Assembly (NCBI GenBank): GCA_016858145.1
Contig: JAEHOE010000083.1
Span: 248,001-312,000, forward strand
DNA from: Edaphochlamys debaryana
Lineage: Eukaryota > Chlorophyta > Chlorophyceae > Chlamydomonadales
Direction: 5' to 3'
DNA: 64,000 nucleotides
How positions within the stretch are numbered: the stretch's first letter is position 1; each line of letters begins with the position of its first letter. The translations under genes and the position numbers were made by a program. The notes beneath the pieces are model-generated. The model made no database searches, was not told the origin of the DNA, and was given only the letters and a program-made list of their open reading frames with translations. Positions 25,066 to 59,230 of the stretch are shown in pieces.

Positions 25066-25846
25066 CGTCAGCTCCTCGTAAGGTCTGCGAAAGAGGTCAC
25101 CACTGCAGCCCTCGATCGCTGAGTAAGTGATAGAGTTGGGCGCGAAGCTGGTTGGCCTTACCTCTGCGCGCAACAGTAATCCTTGCCGTACCATTTTGCG
25201 GCTGTGAACGCTGCCTGGCACGCAAAGCAGCGCTCTCTGCGTGAATGGTTTAGGGATACGGGCGAATCGCCGGGGGCGCCGGTTTTGGTGGATGTCGGGC
25301 GGGACATCGGGATGGCTCTCGCGCAAAGCCAAGTCGCCGTCGGCACAGCGACCTGATACCAGAGTGCAGCAGTCACATGACTACCCTCAATGCCGCCCTC
25401 AACACCCCGGCCGCCAGCAAGTACAGAACCCCGGCCCCCAGCCTCACCACCACACGATGTGGCTTCTTGCCACGTTGTTCTCGTCAAACCCCAGCCTCAC
25501 GCCCTGGCTGCCCCCAAGCCACCACGGTGGAAGCAGTCGGCTCTTGGGCAGCAGTTTTGTCAGGACATATCGGAGGATAGCAAGGCGTCGTTCATAAGGG
25601 CTGTGGACAGAAGATTTGATCTCTAGTTTGGGAAGATGAAGCCCGCTGCTGGCCGCCGCCCGGAGCGTTGTGTTTTTGGGCTGAGCCGCCGCCGTTAGGC
25701 TCTTCGGGCGGCGAAGCCCCCCGGGATTACCCCGTGTTGCGTGCGTGCGTGCCTGTGTCACACATTATCATTATCCCTATCGCTTGTGATTAAGAGCGTG
25801 GAAAGTTATCGCGACGGCGTGGAGCGGGCGTGTGGCGGCCCTGCAG
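25066..25846. other. Spacer between secreted-protein gene and Fanzor gene
   Basis: Short open frames occur on both strands, but none has the third-position G/C bias of the real exons here. It must hold the promoter of the minus-strand secreted-protein gene, and it is where the missing N-terminal coding part of the Fanzor gene would be expected. I cannot identify that part. Confidence 0.4.
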
Positions 25847-27393
25847 TCAGCTGACGCGGCGCCGCCCGAGACGTATACGCAGGAGGAGCTGGCCCGCATG
25901 TTGGTGGTGGGCGTTGATCCGGGAGCGGGGCGCAGCTGGTTCACGGCGGCCTCAAGCCCTCTGTACGCGCCCACGGAATGGGCGTGGCGAGGATGCGCGC
26001 ACGACAGCGACAGCGTCGGCGGCAGTGACAGCGACGGGTCTGAGGCCGGCAGCAGCGAGGGCAGCGAGGGCAGCGGCGGCAGCGGGGGCAGCAGCGAGGG
26101 CAGCGGCGGCGAGGACAGCGACGGCGGCGGCGGTGGCAGCGGTGGCGGGGCCAGGGCCTGCCTGGAGTACCTGCATGACCAACAGCTGAACGGATACGAC
26201 GATACTGTGAGGTTGCCGCCTCAGCCCCGCCGCCCCGTGCGCGCGGGGACAACAGCCAGACGCAGGCGGCGCCGGGGGGGCAAGCGGCGCAAGCAGTCAA
26301 AGCACTGGCAGCCGCGAGGGGCTACGGCCAAGCGCAGGCGCCAGAGGCGCGGCTGCTATCGCATGTCCATGGGACATTGGCGGCAGATGGCTGGCCTCGG
26401 GCCAGTCAGGGCTGTTGACCTCCAGGCTCCACCAGAGCTGCAGCGGTACATTGCCGCCATCCCTACGGCGGCAACCGCCTCCTCTGCGCGGTACGAGGTG
26501 CACCTGCGCTACCTCGCTCTTCGGCAGGCCGGCAGCGGCAGCTGATGCGGGGCCGTCGGGCGCGGGGCCGTCGGGCGCGGGGCCGTCAGGCGCGGGGCCG
26601 TCGGGTGCGGGGACGTCGGATGCGGGGCCTCCGGGCCCAGCGCTGGGTGTGGTGGATGTGCTCTGGCACTACCACACCTCGGCGTTCCGCCGCAAGCGCT
26701 GGGCCGCCTTCATCCAGCGCGACCGCGCACTGCACCGCGTCGCCCAGCAGCTCACGCGCGGGCGGCGGCAGGAGGAGGTGGTGGTGGGCTGGGGGTCGTG
26801 GGCTTTCGGCGGGGGACAAGGGGGCTCGCCCATTCGACCAAGGGCGGGCGCGCCCCCACCGGGCGGTTAATAAAGCTGCTCCGCGAGCGATACGCGAAGC
26901 ACGTCCTCGTCATCGACGAGTACAGGACTAGCAAGGTGGGCGGGGCGCATCGGTACCAGCCAGGCGAGAGGGGCGCTTCATTAGGTCTTGCAGTCGCATC
27001 CTTCCTTCTTCGACCCCCTCCTACGTGCGCACACCCACACCGCAGACGTGCTACAACTGCGGGCACCAGGACATGGTGCTGAGGAACGGACTTGCGGGCC
27101 TACGGGATGGCCAGCGGGCCTGGTCGGTGAAAGACTGCAACAGTTGCTTCACAACCTGGGTAGGTGCGGGTGGGTGGGTGGGTTGGGGACGGTCCGTTGG
27201 GGCTTGGCGGCGTTGGTGTGGCGGAGGGCTGGTTGGGTAGACTTGGCTGGACTGACCCGCACCCCTTCCCACGCCCCCTCAGAACCGCGACGTCTCCGCT
27301 GCCAACGTGATCCGCATCCTCCTCTTGCTGAAGCTGCTGGGCTTCAGCCGGCCGGTCGCGCTGGAGCGGCCGCCGGCCGTGGACCCGGGCTGA
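25847..27393 (+). pseudogene. Fanzor: eukaryotic TnpB-like RNA-guided endonuclease, frame-broken
   Basis: The nuclease core of the OrfB/TnpB-Fanzor family is readable in order. RuvC-I is MLVVGVDPGAG (25900-25932). A Ser/Gly-rich insert and a basic region follow, then the helical part (VLWHYHTSAFRRKRWAAFIQ), GWGSWAFGG, KGGRAPTGRLIKLLRERY and RuvC-II as LVIDEYRTSK. Splicing at AAG|gtgggc (26935) to ccgcag|ACG (27046) yields EYRTSKTCYNCGH. The second zinc-ribbon pair is KDCNSC. Splicing at 27159 to 27283 adds RuvC-III, NRDVSAANVI, and a stop at 27391-27393. In the known family an RNA transcribed from the element guides DNA cutting in the nucleus. Two frame changes are needed inside the first exon: one extra base near 26510-26545 and one missing base near 26805-26850, perhaps in a G run. 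No intron of credible size explains them. The N-terminal part is not found, so this is probably a decayed or 5'-truncated copy. Confidence 0.85.
26549..26625 (+). repeat. 15-bp minisatellite inside the Fanzor gene
   Basis: gggccgtcgggcgcg repeats about five times with drift at the end. In the coding frame it gives Gly-Pro-Ser-Gly-Ala units, a linker between the beta-rich RuvC-I part and the following helices. One of the two frame changes sits just before it. Confidence 0.75.
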
Positions 27394-28614
27394 GCGCCCA
27401 AAAGCAGCGGCGGCGGCGGAGGGAGAGATGGAGCGGGTGGCGTGTGGGCAGGAGCGGATTGGAGACGGACATCTTCTCTTTCTATCTTTTGGAGGGTGCA
27501 TGTGAATGTGCGCCCAACCCAACCGGCAAAGTCCGGCATTGCGGGGTTGCGAAGGCCCCCAACTTAGGCGGCGTGGGTTTAGTCCGTGCGCTGTGGGGCG
27601 TAGTGCTTGATTGCGCGGCCCCAGTGCTGCCCGGCCTCGCGGGGTTTGGGGCTCAGCCCTTTTCCCTGTCCTGAGGAGGGACAGACACCCTTGTTTCCTG
27701 CACCTGGTTTGGGACGAAGGCTTGTTGGGACGAAGGCTTGTTGGGACGAAGGCGTTTTGGGACGAAGGCTTCCCATAAGGTAAGGTCATGGTCTGGTCAT
27801 TGACAGAGTTGAGGCGAGAACCTCTTGTCAGAACATCTCAAGGCAGCAGGTGACAGCTTCCGGCGGTCAACTCAGACCGCCAACACCGATGTCCTGTTGC
27901 CCCTGAAGTGGCTTGCCCCAAGCCAAGTCGACCCCTCCACGAAAGCCACGACGCCTTGCATACAGACCCACTGCCTAACCATTGTGCGCTGGTTCTCCGG
28001 TCTCTGCGTCTACCACTCCGTCTATTCCCTGCACCCCTCCCCCACTACCCCCACGCCCCATGGCTAGGGTGCATCAGAAGGCGAAGCAGGCACCACCCCA
28101 TCCAAGCGCCTTCGGCCCTCACGCCACGCATGGAGCTCGTCACTCCGCGGCTCCGAGTGAAGGGCAGCCGCTCGCCCGGCAACCAGCAACTGGCTCGCAA
28201 GCAAGGGCAACAGGAAGGAAGTCGGCTCAGTTCCAAGCTGGAGTGCGCAAAACCGTCGAAGCGACCACGTTACATGTGCAAGGAAGAGCCTGTAGCCGCC
28301 GGCAGGCCGGCAGACAGGGTGCTCGATGCAGCCCTCACCTTGCGTCCTCGCCACGACCAAGGGATCCTTCCGCCTGGGCTCCGGAGTACGAAGGCATGCA
28401 TCACGGCCCCTCCTCCCGGTGCACAGCGGACTGCTCCTGACAGCCAAAGGCACAATGCGGACCGCTGTCCCCGTCACAGCACGTAGGGCAGGGGCCGGGG
28501 CGGTCGCAGGCCTTGGTGGGAGTAGGTCCAGCCCCGGTGGCCCAACACATACCTAGGTGGGAGGGCGACCGAGGCAAGCGGGGCGCCACAGTAAGGCAAC
28601 TCATAAGCTCGACA
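27394..28614. other. Fanzor 3' flank and intergenic spacer
   Basis: No coding exon is supported here. In TnpB and Fanzor loci the guide RNA commonly starts within or just after the 3' end of the nuclease gene, so the first 300-400 bases are where one would look for it. I see GC-rich self-complementary stretches but cannot fold them. The four 16-bp repeats at 27709-27772 lie in this spacer. Splice-like sites on the minus strand at 28450-28610 might mark alternative 3' exons of the SprT-like gene. Confidence 0.4.
27709..27772 (+). repeat. Four 16-bp direct repeats downstream of the Fanzor gene
   Basis: The unit ttgggacgaaggcttg occurs twice exactly and twice with changes in its last bases, without gaps. 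It starts 316 bp after the Fanzor stop codon. It could be a chance minisatellite, a subterminal repeat of the element, or part of its guide RNA region. Nothing else in the sequence decides between these. Confidence 0.9.
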
Positions 28615-30966
28615 TCATCCGTACTCTCCTGATAGCGTAGCGCAGGTCAAGGCGCACAGGCGAACCAAGTCCCCCCCTGGCCATCCACGAGTAGCCCAGG
28701 CCCCGTCAGCCCCCGCCGGGGCGCACCAGTTGAGCATGAGGAAGTTGTAGCCGTGCCCCTGCGGGTCGAGGACCAGCGCAACAGTAGGAGGCAGTGCAGT
28801 GCAGTGGGAGACTGGTGGGCTCCAAAGGCCTGGCGAGCATTCGCCCGAGCCTCCGGGTCCATGCCACACAAACAGACCCCCGACGGCCTGGCTTGCCTGC
28901 AGCGACATGTTGGCCGGCGCCTCCCGGGCAAAGGGCTCGCACATTGAGAACAGCATGGCGTGCAGCATCTCGTGCGCCACCGTGTGGGCCAGCCAGGACA
29001 GCCTGCGGGGCGGTGGGTGCCGGTGCGGGTAGGAGGGCGCGGGCCACGAAAGGTCAGGTGGGGCTAATGTTGAGGGCGAGACGGGATCGGGGCGACGTAG
29101 GGTATCGGCACCTGGTCGATGCAGGGTTGCGGTGCAGAGGGGTCCTTGCGCCCTCCGACCCGCGGCCCCACCCACCCACCGGGAGGTGCACACCACGCCG
29201 TCTAACCGCACCGGCCGCCCCACACTGGGCAGCCAGGAGCCCCAGACCTGGGGGAAGGCGGGAGGAGGGTCATGGCGACCGGCCGGGACGCTCGTGCTCG
29301 CGGCCACCGTGCAGGTTCGCAGCCCCCAAGCGCTGCAAGGTGTGGTCGCCCCTCGCACCTCGCGCCACAAGATGACTTCCCCCGTGCGGTGCCGGTACGT
29401 GGCGCTGGGGCCGGAGACCGGGGCCTGCCCGGCCTGCGGAGCGTCCCCAGCGGGTCCCTCCGCACCGTCGCCCCGGTCCCTTTGTTGGCCCCGCTGCCAC
29501 CACCTCCGACCGCCGCCCCCTTGCGCCGCCGGTTCACAGCACTCTCGCCCGCTGCCACCGCTGCTGCCTGGCCCGTGCCCGGGACCCTGTGCCTGCACTG
29601 CTGCGGCCTGCGGCGCCGGCGCCGCCGGCCCCGGGGGCTGCGGCCGCACCAGCACCAGCGGCGCCACGCCCAGACGCCACTCCTTGGCGGCAAGCCGCTC
29701 GCGCGCGGAGGACGGGGAGGAGTAGGAGGACACCACCTGCTCACACGCGCGGAACGGTATGCAAGAGAGGGTCGGCGGGCCTGAGGGTGCCTGCATTACA
29801 GGAGCAGCGGCGCGCTGCTGTCCACGCCTCGCTGCTGGGCTGGCGCACACATCCGCATGTCCCAATCCCGAACTTGCCGCGTCACCCGTGGGCGCGCCGG
29901 CACCCTCCAGTCGGTAGTCCGCCGACACGTAGGACAGCCGCCGGCGCGTGCGCCTGCGGGGCGCGGGGACCATACCGTTCAGCGGTTCGCGGCGGACACG
30001 TGTCTTGGCAGCAGCGAGACACATTGCTACAGCCCAGCGAGGCAAGCCAGCGGCCTAGCCCGGGTCCCGGCGCCAAGTCCCAGCTTCACGGTGCATCGCG
30101 CGCGGCGGCAACCGCAGCTTTGGCGGAGGCATCAGCCCTTCCTCCCCCCGCGGCGCACCTGCTCAGCTCTCGGTGGAAGGTGCCCTGGAAGAACTCCGAG
30201 TCAATGACGCGGGCCAGCGCCTGCAGCCATGCACGTAGGGGCAGGGCCCCAGAGGCACACGGACGATCGGGACGACGTGGGCCGACGGGTAGGCACGGGC
30301 GGGGTGCAGACCGCAGCAGTGGGCGCTTGCCTCCAGATTGCCTCGCTGCTGCACACGGCTAGTTCTCCCTCCCCAGGCCCCCCGATGTCGTGTGCTGTGC
30401 CGCCTGCGCACCTGCAGGCGCCAGGGGGTCATGTCCTCGACCTCGAAGTCCGCCCGCCAGCTGCCGCCCTCGGGCGAGGCCGCGCGCCGCATCACCGCCG
30501 CCCATTTGGCCCTCCGCGACAACAGCCGTGGGAGGGAGCGCGCCTCGCCCTTGGGCACGCGGCCCCAGCACACCTGGGAGACAGTGTGGAGCATGGGGGT
30601 GGGTGGCGGGTTGAGAGCGCGGAAGGGGGCCTGTGGGAAGCCAAGCGTCCGCGCCAATTTGGCTGCCGCTCACAGGGGCCACTCTAACGTTCACCCGCAT
30701 CATCAGCGCCCGAGAGTGTCCAAGCACTGACCTTGGCCCAGTCCTGATCGTCCAGCCGAAAGTCAAACTGCCTCTGTTGGGAACGGAAGAGGGAACAGGA
30801 AGGGGAGCTTTACAGCGTTGGGAACGGAAGAGGGAACAGGAAGGGGAGCTACACAGCGTTGGGAACGGAAGAGGGAACAGGAAGGGGACAGCGTTGCCAC
30901 AGACGCCGGCGTCACCCCTGGCTTACGTCCGAGCTTGGGCGGGACGCCGAAGAGGTCAGGCTCCAT
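28615..30966 (-). CDS. SprT/Spartan-like zinc metalloprotease
   Basis: My model has nine minus-strand exons: 30966-30916, 30773-30732, 30573-30412, 30220-30159, 29953-29851, 29736-29359, 29247-29180, 29002-28897 and 28758-28615. Phases agree throughout and give 371 residues. The SprT signature is clear: ALARVIDSEFFQGTFHREL near residues 86-104, VRLDGVV before the active site, then the HExxH helix (VAHEMLHAMLF, His299, Glu300, His303) and the third zinc ligand in GHGYNF (His326). SprT-like proteases such as SPRTN and Wss1 degrade proteins cross-linked to DNA, and that role is inferred here. A Gly/Gln-rich insert (exon 6) separates the N-terminal part from the catalytic core. The intron between the HExxH exon and the GHG exon begins with GCAAGC, a GC-AG intron. 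The last exon end is uncertain: a donor at AACTG|gtgcgc would give a shorter, different tail. Exons 5-6 are the weakest part. Confidence 0.72.
30776..30892. repeat. Three 35-41-bp tandem repeats in intron 1 of the SprT-like gene
   Basis: Two copies of 41 bp and one of 35 bp start gttgggaacggaagagg. On the gene's strand each copy is a pyrimidine-rich tract ending like the true acceptor at 30774, but only the last one keeps the AG. The repeat thus multiplies the polypyrimidine tract of the intron. Confidence 0.85.
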
Positions 30967-54400: not shown

Positions 54401-57400
54401 CGGCCTCGGGACTTCACTCTGCAGGGGCGAGGGTTTTGCGGCGTCCGACACAAAAGGGGGCCATTTCGGCGATCAAGGGTCAACGATAATACCGCTGGAT
54501 TGCTCCTGAGCTCATGGACGCAAACTCAGTGACTGGCCCCCTTCCCCCTCCTCCAGGAGCGCTGCAACTCCGGGACGGCTACCCGCCCCTTTCGGCGCCA
54601 GGACCGGCGGGAGGCGGGCGGCACGCGTCCTTCTTCTACCGCCGCGCTGACTGGGCCCACAACCTGGCCTTCAATGTCTTCTACAGCCGTGAGTGGGGAT
54701 CACATGGTCTAGGAGAAGACGGGACTCCGCTTCTCTTGTGTTTTAAAAGGGCAGGAGAGCGTGGGAGACCTGGCGCCACGCCTTTGTGCCCTTTGTGCCC
54801 GTACAACTCCCCTGCAGTGCCGTTCCTGTACGAGATCCGTACGTTGCTGGACTGGACGTGCGTGACCACCTCGCTGGACTGGTACAGCTGGCTCAAGCTG
54901 GAGGGTGCGTGCTGGGCTCTGGGGTGGGACGCGTGGAAGGGGCTGGCCGGAGGGCCTCGTGGGAGGTCTGGGGCTCTTCGCCGCGTGTGGCTGGAGTGTG
55001 GCCGACCAGCGTGCGCCCCTGTCCCCGCCCTCCCGCAGACATCCGTTCCAGCCTCTTCGTGGCCACCTGCCGCAACCAGTGAGCGCGGGGTGGAAGAACT
55101 GGCTTTGCAGGCTAGCCCGTTGCACAGCGTAGACGGGTTGGGACCCGCTCGTCGGTTCGGAACGGGTCTTGCCTGTCAGTCGGGGCGTTCTTGCCTGACA
55201 GACTCCCCCCTTGCTGCACCCGATCGCAGATCCAACAAGCACCGGCGCATCGGCGAGCGAGTGCCCCGATACGTCAAGGCGTCACAGGTGTGCGCAGGCC
55301 CGGGGCCGAAACGGCAAGCCCCCCTGCTATGCCCCTGGCAACCCTCGTGCTGTACCCCGGCGGGGACCGCGAGGGCGTGTGGCACACTTCACAGCCCCAA
55401 AGTCATGTGCAAAATTAGCCCACTGACAGCAGTGTGCCGGGACCAAGCACCCGCCTCCACGCATGTCACCCCCCCGTGCAAGCCACTCTGCAAACCCCCT
55501 TGCAAACCCCCCTTGTAACCCCCCTTGCAAGCCTCCTTGCAACCCCCCTCTGCAAGCCCCCTCTGCAACCCCCGGTTGCACGCTCCCCTTGCAACCCCCT
55601 CAGCCCCCTCTGCAACACCCCACCCCCCCTGCAACCCTCATCTGCAAGCCCCCCTTGCAACCCTCATCTGCAACCCCCCTCCGCAACCCCCCTCTGCAAC
55701 ACCCCTCCGCAACACCCCTTGCTACCCCCCCCTGCTACCCCCCTTGCAGTCCCCTTGCTACCCTCCTTGTAACCCCCCCTGCTAGCCCCCGTGCTATCCC
55801 CCTTGCTATCCCCCTTGCTGTCCCCCCTTGCTAGACCCCCCTGCAACCCCCGTCTTGCAACCCCCCCTGCGAACCCGTCTGCAACCCCCCTTGCCAACCC
55901 TCTTGCAACCCCCCTTGCCAACCCCCTTGCAGTCCCCCTTGCAAACGCCCTTGCAAACCCCCTTCCCTATCCCTCCTACAACCCCCCTTGCTATTCCCCC
56001 TTGCTATCCCCCCTTGCAATCCCCTGTGCAACCCCCTCGCTATACTGGTACCCCGGGCTGACCTCCCCTGCCCCCTCTTCCCTCCTCCCCCCCCCCAGGG
56101 CGTGCTGGCGCTGGCCGCGCTGCTGCTGGTGCTGTGGCTGCCGCCGCTCTTCTTCTCCAGCGGTGCGCCCACCTACCAGGTGCCCTCGCTGCAGGACGTG
56201 CGGGTCAACGTGTCGCTCGCGCAGGTGGGGGTGGGGGGCGGAGGGGGGCGTAGAGGGGATGGGCGAGCGGGACATGCAGCCCACAAAGGGTGGAGGATAT
56301 GTTGGTCATGTGCCTTGGGGCGGGGCTGCGATGGCCTTGGGATGCAGCAAGGCGGCAGCAAGCTAGCAACCAGACGGCCGGCTGTCCTCAGCTGCGCATC
56401 CGGCGTCCTGTGCCTGCCCGCGCTGGCTTCCCCCACCGACTGTGCCGCCTGCTCCACCCCGCGCTGGCGCCCCAGGTTTTCGGCGGATCGGACGCCGCCT
56501 CCGTGCAGCGGTTCCCCATCTTCGCAGCCGGCGACCGCAGAGCCATCTTCCGCTGGACCGTCCCCGAGCCGCCGCCGCCGCCGCGGCCCCCTGCGCCGCC
56601 GCCCGCCGCGCCGCTCCACCCGCCCGCACCCTCTCCCGCTCAGCCGCCCAGGCCCCGCCTGCCACTGAGCCCCCAAAGCCCGGGGGCCGAGGCCCCGCTC
56701 GCCCCCGAGAAGACGGCCTCAGTGCCGGACTGGCTTCATGCAGGCAGCGAGGCACCCCAACCCGCGGGTGTCCTTACGGCGCCAAATCGGAAGGAAACGG
56801 CGGCGGAGAGGCGCGGCCTGGCGGAGGTGGCCGCTGGGGGCGGCGGGGGCGGCCTGCCACGTGCCCTGGCGGGGTACGCTCCGGAGCAGGTGTGATGAGG
56901 GGGAGGTTGCGTGGGGGCGTGGATGGGCGACAAGTGGGAGGGCGGCCGCGCGTCCGGGGACCACGGGCAGGGGCAAGTGTCCGCGCAGCGCAGATGCAGA
57001 ACGCATCGTCAGGCCATCGCCGTCGTCCGATGCATTGCACCCGTCCATAACCCTCTCTAGGGAGAGGGAGACCTCAACCCTCTTACTCCGGCTTCTCACC
57101 TCCGGAACCTACCAAACCCACCCTTGCAGGCCATGGCTGGCTGTTTCGCCCCCGAGTCCGACTCCACCTGGCGGGCCTCGCCGCCCGCGCGGGCGGCCCT
57201 GGCGGCGGCGCTGGCGGCGGAGGCTGACCCGGGGCAGAGCGGGGACCCTGCGCCCGTGGTGCTGGAGGTGGGTGCAGCGGAGCGCAAACGGGTGGGGGGT
57301 ATGCGGGGCATCCGTGACTCGCAACCCTTCATCAAGTTGGCTTGGCCTCGTGTTTCTCGTCCCGGCCCTCCGCAGGTGCGCTGGCTGCTGACCCGCTCTG

Positions 57401-59230
57401 CGCCGCTGAGCTCTGCCAAGGGTGGCCCGGGCTGCGCTGGGGGCGTCTCGGTACCGCTGTCACTGCCGTCCCGAAAGGGCCTGGCCCAGGTGGGGAGATA
57501 CAGGCCGTTTCCAGCGGTGGACGGTTGCCAAGCTCGGTGGCAAACAGCCCCATCGCCGGGGCCTGCCTGACTTGCTCTGTGTCAACTACATGCCTCCATA
57601 GCACCCGGCCGCGCCATATCAGTAACCGTCACCATCAGTGATACGGCTTAGGCATCTCTGGTAGAGAAAGCGGCCGCCTTACCAATGCGCACTCAGGAGC
57701 TCCGTTCGAGTGTGCTGGACAGCACGGTCACGGAGCGACTGCGGCGTCCCAAGCGTTGGACGGTCGCCAAGATCTGCCAGGCCGCTACCCTTCCGCCGGT
57801 CGGACCAGTCCCAGGCTCGATGCCGCATCATCCTATTGACGTCCCCCCTCCCTCGGGGGCCCCGCTCCCCGCCTGGGCCCCGCCCCCCGCCCCGCAGCTC
57901 CTCGTCGGAGCAACCAACCGCACCCTCCTCACCGCCGCCAACGCCACCGACCCCGCCGCACACGGCTCTCCGGGCCTGTTCCCGCTCTTCCTGCGCCTGC
58001 GCGGCGACGCCTGCAGCGTGCGGCTGGGGCTGCAGGGCGACGGAGGCGGCGGCAGCGCCACGCCGCCGCTCACCGGCCGAGGCCCCCAGCAGTCCCTTGC
58101 TGCTGCCAGCCAGCGACGACGGGGTCTGCTCGAGAGGTTGGGCTGGGGCGCCTGGCGCAGGAGCAGGGGCGGCGTTGACGCGGTCCCGGCTGCCAGCGAG
58201 GAGGCGGACCGCTGGGGCGATGCGATGGTGGGGTGCTACGCAGTGCTGGCCTCAGAGGGCGGTGGAGGGGGCTGGGGCGAGTGGTGGTCGCTCGAGTGCG
58301 GCGCGCTGCTGCCGCCGGGCCCCGGCGGCGACGGCGATGCCGACGCTGACGATGGCGCCGCCAAGGCCCAGCGCAGGCGGCGGGGCCTGGCGGCCGCCTC
58401 GGCGCCTTTGCTGGCGCCGTCCCCAAGCCCGAGTCCGGCTCCACAACCGGACCCGGATCCGGATCCGAGTCCGGAGCTGCTGGACGCCTGCGCGGGCGCC
58501 CCGGGCGGCTCCCGGGCGCTGCAGGGGCCTCCGCTGGTGGCGGTGCTGGAGCCGGTGCAGAGCGGACTGCTGGTGGGTGGGGCTGGCGCTTGGGGTGTGG
58601 GGGCGGGCCGTGGAGGCTGGAGGACTGCGGGAGGCAAGGAGCCCGCCAGTCGCCCCGTGCTTTCCTGGCCCTTCCTCGTCTCGCAGCAATTGCTCGTTTA
58701 CCCCGCCCCCGCCCTCCCCGCGCCCCAGGGCGAGACGCTCTCCCGCTTCGGCATCACGGGCCTCTACATCACCTTTGTGCTGGCCATCGGCCGCTTCCTG
58801 CGCCTCTCCGTGTCCAGCCTGCGCCTGCGCATCCCCACAGAGGACCTGCCCTCCACGCGGCGCCTCGTGGCGCTGTGCCAGGACGTGGCGGTCGCACGGG
58901 CGGAGGGTGAGTCGCGTGCGCGGTCCCCCTGCCTCGTACGTCGTAGGGTGGCGCGTGGAGCTTGAAGGGATGGGAATGCGGACGCGGCGGCGAAACGCCG
59001 GGGCCCAGTGGTGACTCATATACCGGCACGCTCGGCCTGGGTTGTAACTATGGGGCTCGTTGGGGATGGCCTGTTGGCGTTGAAGCCGCTGACTTGAACC
59101 CCGACCCGTGTGCGCGTTACCGACCACAGGCGAGCTGGTCCTGGAGGAGCAGCTGTTCCGGGCGCTGATCAACGTGTACCGCTCGCCCGAGCTCCTGTTC
59201 GAGCTGAGCAAGAAGCACAAGCAGGCGTGA
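39440..59230 (+). CDS. PIEZO: Piezo mechanosensitive ion channel
   Basis: Thirty-eight exons join in phase to 4129 residues: 39440-39521, 39626-41069, 41213-42649, 42817-43137, 43259-43530, 43663-43969, 44130-44453, 44603-44828, 44949-45416, 45557-45708, 45866-46127, 46329-46856, 47080-47136, 47290-47493, 47639-48155, 48304-48704, 48897-49579, 49780-49867, 50064-50234, 50478-50567, 50702-50916, 51057-51699, 51891-52315, 52474-52927, 53145-53215, 53384-53501, 53637-53802, 54557-54688, 54818-54904, 55039-55078, 55230-55287, 56099-56224, 56476-56889, 57130-57267, 57376-57489, 57697-58572, 58729-58906, 59130-59230. Family marks are FYTATAFLDILSFLY; PFLYEIRTLLDWTC with WLKLEDI (about 3420-3450); the outer helix (3482-3523); a cap; and the pore-lining inner helix GITGLYITFVLAIGRFLR plus RIPTEDLPSTRRLVALCQD and YRSPELLFELSKK at the C-terminus. 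Piezo forms a trimeric, force-gated cation channel. Most earlier exons are hydrophobic blade helices separated by low-complexity loops. The length far exceeds the usual 2500-2800. Exon 11 may end in a GC donor. Confidence 0.94.
49934..49999 (+). repeat. Two 33-bp direct repeats in Piezo intron 18
   Basis: ggtgaaacagcgagggcttg and the following 13 bases are repeated exactly, head to tail, inside the intron between exons ending at 49867 and starting at 50064. Confidence 0.9.
50370..50412 (+). repeat. 9-bp tandem repeat in Piezo intron 19
   Basis: The unit atggctgtc is repeated about four to five times, between the exon ending at 50234 and the one starting at 50478. The period is a multiple of three, but the stretch is outside the phased exon model. 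Confidence 0.85.
54387..54463. repeat. Imperfect inverted repeat in Piezo intron 27
   Basis: gcccgttttgtgtcgg near 54388-54403 faces ccgacacaaaagggggc near 54445-54461, leaving a loop of about 40 bp. The host intron (53803-54556) is several times longer than most others in the gene and less GC-rich, so a small transposon-derived insertion is possible. Confidence 0.6.
55440..56040 (+). repeat. C/T-rich tandem tract in Piezo intron 31
   Basis: About 600 bp are built from variable short units such as ccccccttgcaac and cccccttgctatc, with almost no G except in the TTGC/CTGC core. It fills most of the 811-bp intron between 55287 and 56099. The sense strand is pyrimidine-rich, so splicing must ignore many weak acceptor-like sites. 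Confidence 0.9.

Follow-up and report, generated by a model that had tools for sequence, protein, structure and literature searches.

A probable relic of a Fanzor1-encoding, Helitron2-type transposon in the genome of Edaphochlamys debaryana

The window, a 64,000-nucleotide stretch of the Edaphochlamys debaryana nuclear genome (contig JAEHOE010000083.1, positions 248,001 to 312,000 of the forward strand), contains the remains of a gene of the Fanzor type within a 2.0-kb element (Table 1). The first-pass annotation had placed a gene for a Fanzor, an RNA-guided nuclease of the eukaryotic TnpB type, at 25847..27393, and the element reaches past both of these limits. The five motifs on which that claim was built (GVDPG, IDEYRTSK, TCYNCG, a second CxxC reading CNSC, and NRDVSAAN) are all found at their places. 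The two canonical introns drawn between the motifs stand as well: both predicted introns run from GT to AG and fall between codons, and their splice sites are conserved.

Table 1. Features of the Fanzor-bearing element, in window positions.
Feature	Position	Strand	Remarks
Element containing the window copy	25677..27693		2.0 kb
TTTTT at left junction	25673..25677	+	First four T are the target motif; last T (25677) taken as element base 1
5' untranslated end	25677..25811	+	Common to other copies; stops at internal deletion junction
5' asymmetric terminal inverted repeat GGGCTGAGCC	25678..25687	+	Perfect 10-bp inverted match to 3' end
Predicted 5' hairpin	about 25678-25720	+	Starts with 5' terminal inverted repeat
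Internal deletion junction	25811..25812	.	Coding start, N-terminal region and TDG motif missing here
Remains of large exon	25847..26935	+	Includes DPG (Asp codon 25916-25918) and EYRTSK (Glu codon 26918-26920); frame broken twice; IDEYRTSK stretch ends at 26935
GVDPG motif	25910..25924
Predicted intron, GT..AG, 110 bp	26936..27045	+
Exon with four zinc-ribbon cysteines (TCYNCG ... CNSC)	27046..27159	+	TCYNCG begins at 27046
Second CxxC (CNSC)	27136..27147
Predicted intron, GT..AG, 123 bp	27160..27282	+
Last exon, NRDVSAAN to stop	27283..27393	+	NRDVSAAN begins at 27283; last catalytic Asp codon 27289-27291
Stop codon	27391..27393
3' non-coding end	27394..27693	+	Kept in nearly all copies read; expected place of a putative Fanzor guide-RNA scaffold
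3' asymmetric terminal inverted repeat GGCTCAGCCC	27650..27659	+	Perfect inverse of 5' repeat
3' terminal hairpin and end ...CACCCTTG	27664..27693	+	Shortly after 3' repeat

The exons are real coding sequence, as the contrast in drift between two sister copies, L031 and L035, and their dN/dS ratio demonstrate. Between the two copies the introns are 66% and 58% identical, whereas identity in the last two exons reaches 96.5% and 99.1%; dN/dS over the exons (456 codons) is 0.275, and the two wrong frames give 1.29 and 1.67. A tblastn comparison with the Chlamydomonas reinhardtii protein P0005, of which residues 387-665 align to the large exon, yields an E-value of 5.5e-36 for window positions 25847-26935, and the similarity is therefore not a product of chance. 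The assignment to an algal nuclear genome is borne out by the conserved splice sites, the C. reinhardtii homologs and the Volvox relatives of a Piezo exon in the window.

Homology confirms the Fanzor family and narrows it to the kind carried by Helitron2 elements of Chlamydomonas. The protein closest to that of L031 is C. reinhardtii P0001 (53% identity over 95% of the query, E 6.5e-149). All nine matches of the L031 protein search come from C. reinhardtii (7989 candidates scored), as do all 12 proteins recovered by a profile search for distant relatives (among 7989 candidates scored). Profile matching, one of the checks proposed by the first-pass annotation, finds the Cas12f1-like TNB zinc ribbon (PF07282) in the spliced tail of the window copy (E 1.5e-10; 41.5 bits, cut-off 26.3) and in L031 (E 2.2e-9). 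A Pfam scan of four unspliced open reading frames of the window gave no matches because the introns split the zinc ribbon. Only two solved chains match the L031 protein at E up to 1, and both are Fanzor1 proteins. The best is Guillardia theta Fanzor1 (GtFz1; PDB 9cer), yet this match is weak (E 0.057, best stretch residues 389-501), and so is that of Spizellomyces punctatus Fanzor1 (SpuFz1), at E 0.2 with L031 and 0.019 with P0005. In another profile search SpuFz1 appears only at E 0.24, not far from a TnpB-like protein of mimivirus type (0.48) and a ribosomal protein (0.65). An AlphaFold2 model of P0005 built from nine sequences has a mean pLDDT of 37.5, too poor for use.

A hand count along the structure-chain alignment of L031 sets the Glu of DEYRTSK on E541 of SpuFz1 and the Asp of NRD on D606, both catalytic residues of that enzyme (PMC11423790). 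The suggested alignment of the RuvC acidic residues with characterised Fanzors holds for these two; the Asp of GVDPG, the expected counterpart of SpuFz1 D383, lies outside the scored alignment and is matched only in a sub-threshold alignment to GtFz1. Fanzor and TnpB proteins are recognised by a RuvC D-E-D triad with DPG and an alternative Glu position (PMC10711439); here the Glu in its alternative position and the last Asp align to SpuFz1, and GVDPG is present. L031, L035 and six aligned C. reinhardtii proteins, P0001-P0005 among them, carry the WED-domain motif TDG, which has been described as marking Fanzor1 (PMC10711439). The C-terminal motif given for the family, D-X(125,275)-[TS][TS]XX-C4 zinc finger-X(5,50)-RD (PMC3627910), is present in its residues and order in L031 and the window pieces under a widened pattern: the D-to-TS spacing is 252 in P0005 and 338 in L031, where Ser/Gly and AGPSG repeats push it beyond the upper limit of 275. 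On this sequence evidence, the motifs and introns are those of the C-terminal half of a Fanzor1-type protein.

The element ends are those of a Helitron2. Bao and Jurka list asymmetric terminal inverted repeats and 5' and 3' hairpins as marks of Helitron2 ends (Bao & Jurka, 2013; PMC3627910), and the window copy has asymmetric inverted repeats, a 5' hairpin and a 3' hairpin just past the 3' repeat. A control for the terminal repeats reached a 10-bp inverted match in 31 of 20000 random placements within the window. Several copies have the sequence up to 25811 in common. The C. reinhardtii elements insert after TTTT (PMC3627910). The 5'-terminus pattern occurs at 244 genome sites at up to one mismatch and at none when read backwards. 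These ends, and the copies, identify the carrier of the Fanzor gene as a eukaryotic, non-IS607 transposon. The first-pass annotation had ventured that the gene was "possibly once carried by a transposon", which proves right and too weakly put, given a multi-copy element with Helitron2-type ends.

Copies were sought in the genome by a DNA search (40 scored of 534 candidates). Of 34 places fetched, 31 extend with the window to a common 3' end, while L052, L061 and L062 do not. Most copies read are 5'-truncated: the 5' terminus is present in 9 and absent in 23 of the 32 (31 fetched places plus the window). The flanks of L029 and L030 are 99.7% identical over 1051 bp, and the pair look like one duplicated site; the L057 copy is also located within L040. 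Of the 23 copies lacking the 5' terminus, 5 have target-site duplications of at least 8 bp (1 of 504 among mismatched flank pairs), as do none of the nine copies with it. A second set of 20 more copies, taken from the 40 best 3'-end matches, repeats this pattern, with duplications of at least 8 bp in 9 of 18 copies without the 5' terminus (5 of 306 mismatched pairs) and in neither of the two with it; L065, in this set, seems 5'-complete at one mismatch, and the 18 are not all independent, since L068, L069, L083 and L084 have one flank in common. These four truncated copies, on contigs C440, C306, C470 and C179, have identical flanks and probably belong to a duplicated region. Where found, duplications are 8-17 bp long, and at 13 of the 14 duplicated sites (by eye) the duplication begins inside or directly behind a run of at least four T, the exception being L076. 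In 5'-complete copies the T-run belonged to the search pattern, so the preference for TTTT was judged on copies without the 5' terminus. The search for other copies and the comparison of their ends, as had been proposed, thus return many copies, a common 3' end and Helitron2-type termini.

LINEs characteristically leave copies that are truncated at the 5' end, complete at the 3' end and flanked by variable target duplications, and the family might accordingly have spread by LINE-type reverse transcription of RNA, with no Helitron involved. The duplications of at least 8 bp, present in the pooled sets at 14 of the 41 copies that lack the 5' terminus (controls 6 of 810), would suit such a process, as would the one 3' end common to nearly all copies read. 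However, no duplication is found in any of the 11 copies with the 5' terminus, intron sequence is retained in all 14 copies compared, none of the 32 ends examined has a poly(A) or simple 3' tail, and the inverted repeats and hairpins at the ends are those of Helitron2. Spread by the LINE route is accordingly quite improbable.

The nuclease might also be a TnpB or a Fanzor2 of the IS607 kind instead of Fanzor1, which appears very unlikely. TnpB models do score the TNB zinc ribbon, below cut-off, and an IS607-like locus lies elsewhere in the genome: in L002 (G000:C61:102118-105315), a resolvase-family serine recombinase frame (PF00239) is followed by a TnpB-like TNB domain, and the whole looks like an IS607/Fanzor2 element. 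Against this, the element in the window has Helitron2 ends, the solved chains matched are Fanzor1, and TDG, as a described Fanzor1 mark (PMC10711439), is present in L031 and its C. reinhardtii relatives.

As a member of a Helitron2-borne Fanzor1 family, the window copy is badly decayed, and "nuclease gene" was too strong a term for it. The first-pass annotation did not remark that the segments with DPG and EYRTSK are not in one open frame, which is broken twice between them: relative to L031, the window has four extra bases near 26515-26519, with a stop codon (26543-26545) after them, and it is one base shorter near 26833, which restores the frame. Two more frame-changing indels are counted before DPG, next to the deletion junction, in a part that aligns uncertainly. 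Some 440 bp present in L031 past the point matching 25811 are missing from the window copy, and the TDG motif, the WED-domain mark of Fanzor1, is absent with them. L031 can be read in a single frame from an ATG to beyond both DPG and EYRTSK, and its N-terminal half is also missing. The N-terminal part of P0005 aligns credibly to L035 and, partly, to L064 only; matches of P0005 residues 95-260 in other loci were discounted by judgement as Ala-rich. Across the window and 36 loci (L029-L064), the N-terminal region, DPG and zinc ribbon occur together in L035 only, and L035 carries a stop codon and a frame break. A search with P0005 for an intact copy (60 of 114 candidates scored, two more loci read) found none among the loci read. 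With its N-terminal half missing and its frame broken, the window copy can hardly encode a working enzyme and, as far as the alignments tell, is a relic. It is hardly credible that it is an intact, working, domesticated Fanzor host gene with introns: it does retain all three acidic residues of the catalytic site, together with the zinc cysteines and good splice sites, but the N-terminal half is gone, two frame breaks separate the motifs, and the copy is one among many with transposon ends.

Very probably, the window contains a copy, with an internal deletion and a broken frame, of a non-autonomous transposon of the Helitron2 type that encodes Fanzor1 and is the counterpart, in another volvocine alga, of CRe-1, CRe-2 and CRe-3 of C. 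reinhardtii. In the proposed mechanism, a Helitron replicase supplied in trans would copy the element by rolling circle from its 3' end, and insertion would follow TTTT, the target and ends being those observed in E. debaryana copies. Copies reaching the 5' terminus would insert with no target duplication, and early stops would yield 5'-truncated, often duplicated copies, which is the observed pattern. By analogy with characterised Fanzors and TnpB, working copies would make a Fanzor1 that binds RNA from the element 3' end with flanking DNA as its guide; the enzyme would cut the matching empty site, and repair would copy the element in. As a relic, the window copy would take no part in this process. 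Helitron_like_N has 32 matches in the E. debaryana genome, and for the 20 compared by eye with listed 5' termini (contigs C1-C151, 100 of 244 termini), none has such a terminus within 10 kb upstream. The match on C37 has a 5' terminus 6.5 kb downstream. We infer an autonomous Helitron partner, none having been found among these 20 of 32 replicase matches.

It is improbable that the one-ended insertions are driven by Fanzor cleavage itself. TTTT would then serve the Helitron as its target and the Fanzor as its target-adjacent motif, and every copy, keeping its 3' end whatever its truncation, would specify a guide directed at its own empty site (TTTT plus flank or duplication). The truncated, duplicated copies would represent RNA-guided breaks repaired by partial copying. 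If this were true, the family would be a two-engine mobile element maintained in at least two volvocine genomes.

In characterised Fanzors, the guide-RNA scaffold sits at the 3' end of the element (PMC10432273, PMC10711439). The last 300 bases of L033, L035, L036, L037 and L039 are 92-97% identical to those of L031, while the first intron in these copies has drifted to 66-75%. In copies close to L031 (L029, L030, L032 and L040), the 3' end is 92-94% identical against 97-100% for the introns; the figures are 92% against 100% and 98% in L032, and 93% against 100% and 97% in L040. This lower identity of the 3' end in the close copies would speak against a special 3' constraint, and sub-family mixing may explain the identity figures. 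When the last 300 nt are shuffled, 157 of 200 shuffles fold at least as well; for the last 136 nt, 9 of 200 do, so this part folds slightly better than shuffles. The 3' ends are nearly identical among copies, with too little variation for covariation, and Rfam at gathering cut-offs finds nothing in the window.

The closest known systems are the Fanzor1 elements CRe-1, CRe-2 and CRe-3 of C. reinhardtii (Bao & Jurka, 2013; PMC3627910), and we infer that P0001-P0005 are the CRe proteins. As described there, the CRe elements share with the E. debaryana family a Fanzor1 gene with introns, Helitron2 ends and insertion after TTTT, together with 5' truncation, a constant 3' end, internal deletions, and target duplications on truncated but not on 5'-complete copies (PMC3627910). 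The E. debaryana family differs in belonging to another genome, in a protein (L031) 53% identical to its C. reinhardtii homolog, in an acidic Ser/Gly-rich insert behind the DPG motif, and in having no intact copy among those read. SpuFz1 resembles the family in the order of the alternative-position Glu, zinc ribbon and last Asp and in its multiple copies, and shorter "ghost" loci of its element likewise retain the 3' guide-RNA end (PMC10432273, PMC11423790), although the two match only weakly in sequence (E 0.2 to 0.019). In the Spu-1 element, unlike that of E. debaryana, the inverted repeats are 30 nt long and the TAM is CATA (PMC10432273). Activity has been demonstrated for SpuFz1 (PMC10432273, PMC11423790), whereas for the E. 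debaryana family it is putative.

Among the papers searched, none pairs Fanzor with Edaphochlamys. The family is a new relative of the already described C. reinhardtii elements, and the CRe pattern of 2013 is repeated in a second genome. The partnership of Fanzor1 with Helitron2, known from C. reinhardtii, is thereby extended to a second volvocine genome, odd insertion pattern included. Since a second genome has a like pattern, these insertions seem to reflect an enduring trait of the family rather than a peculiarity of a single species. In an alga related to a standard laboratory organism, the E. debaryana family offers a natural place for testing the roles of Fanzor proteins for transposons.

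Other features of the window and genome lie apart from the element. More TNB-domain clusters (L001 and L003-L008) occur at about 788-836 kb of G000:C10 and about 122-138 kb of G000:C115; some of their TNB matches adjoin ankyrin-repeat-like and intein-like frames (by eye), resembling giant-virus-derived insertions. On the reverse strand of the window, 28957-28980 encodes VAHEMLHA, a metallopeptidase-like stretch of the HExxH type (by eye), in frame inside an open frame (28615-30045) that has no Pfam match at 1e-3. Window positions 1-20135 are filled by a satellite array in which a 109-bp unit is repeated in tandem about 185 times (99% matches), up to the left edge of the window; a centromeric or subtelomeric array would be a guess. 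At 54514-58965 on the forward strand, frames match the Piezo mechanosensitive channel (PF24874, PF12166), and the closest named relatives of the PF12166 frame are in Volvox.
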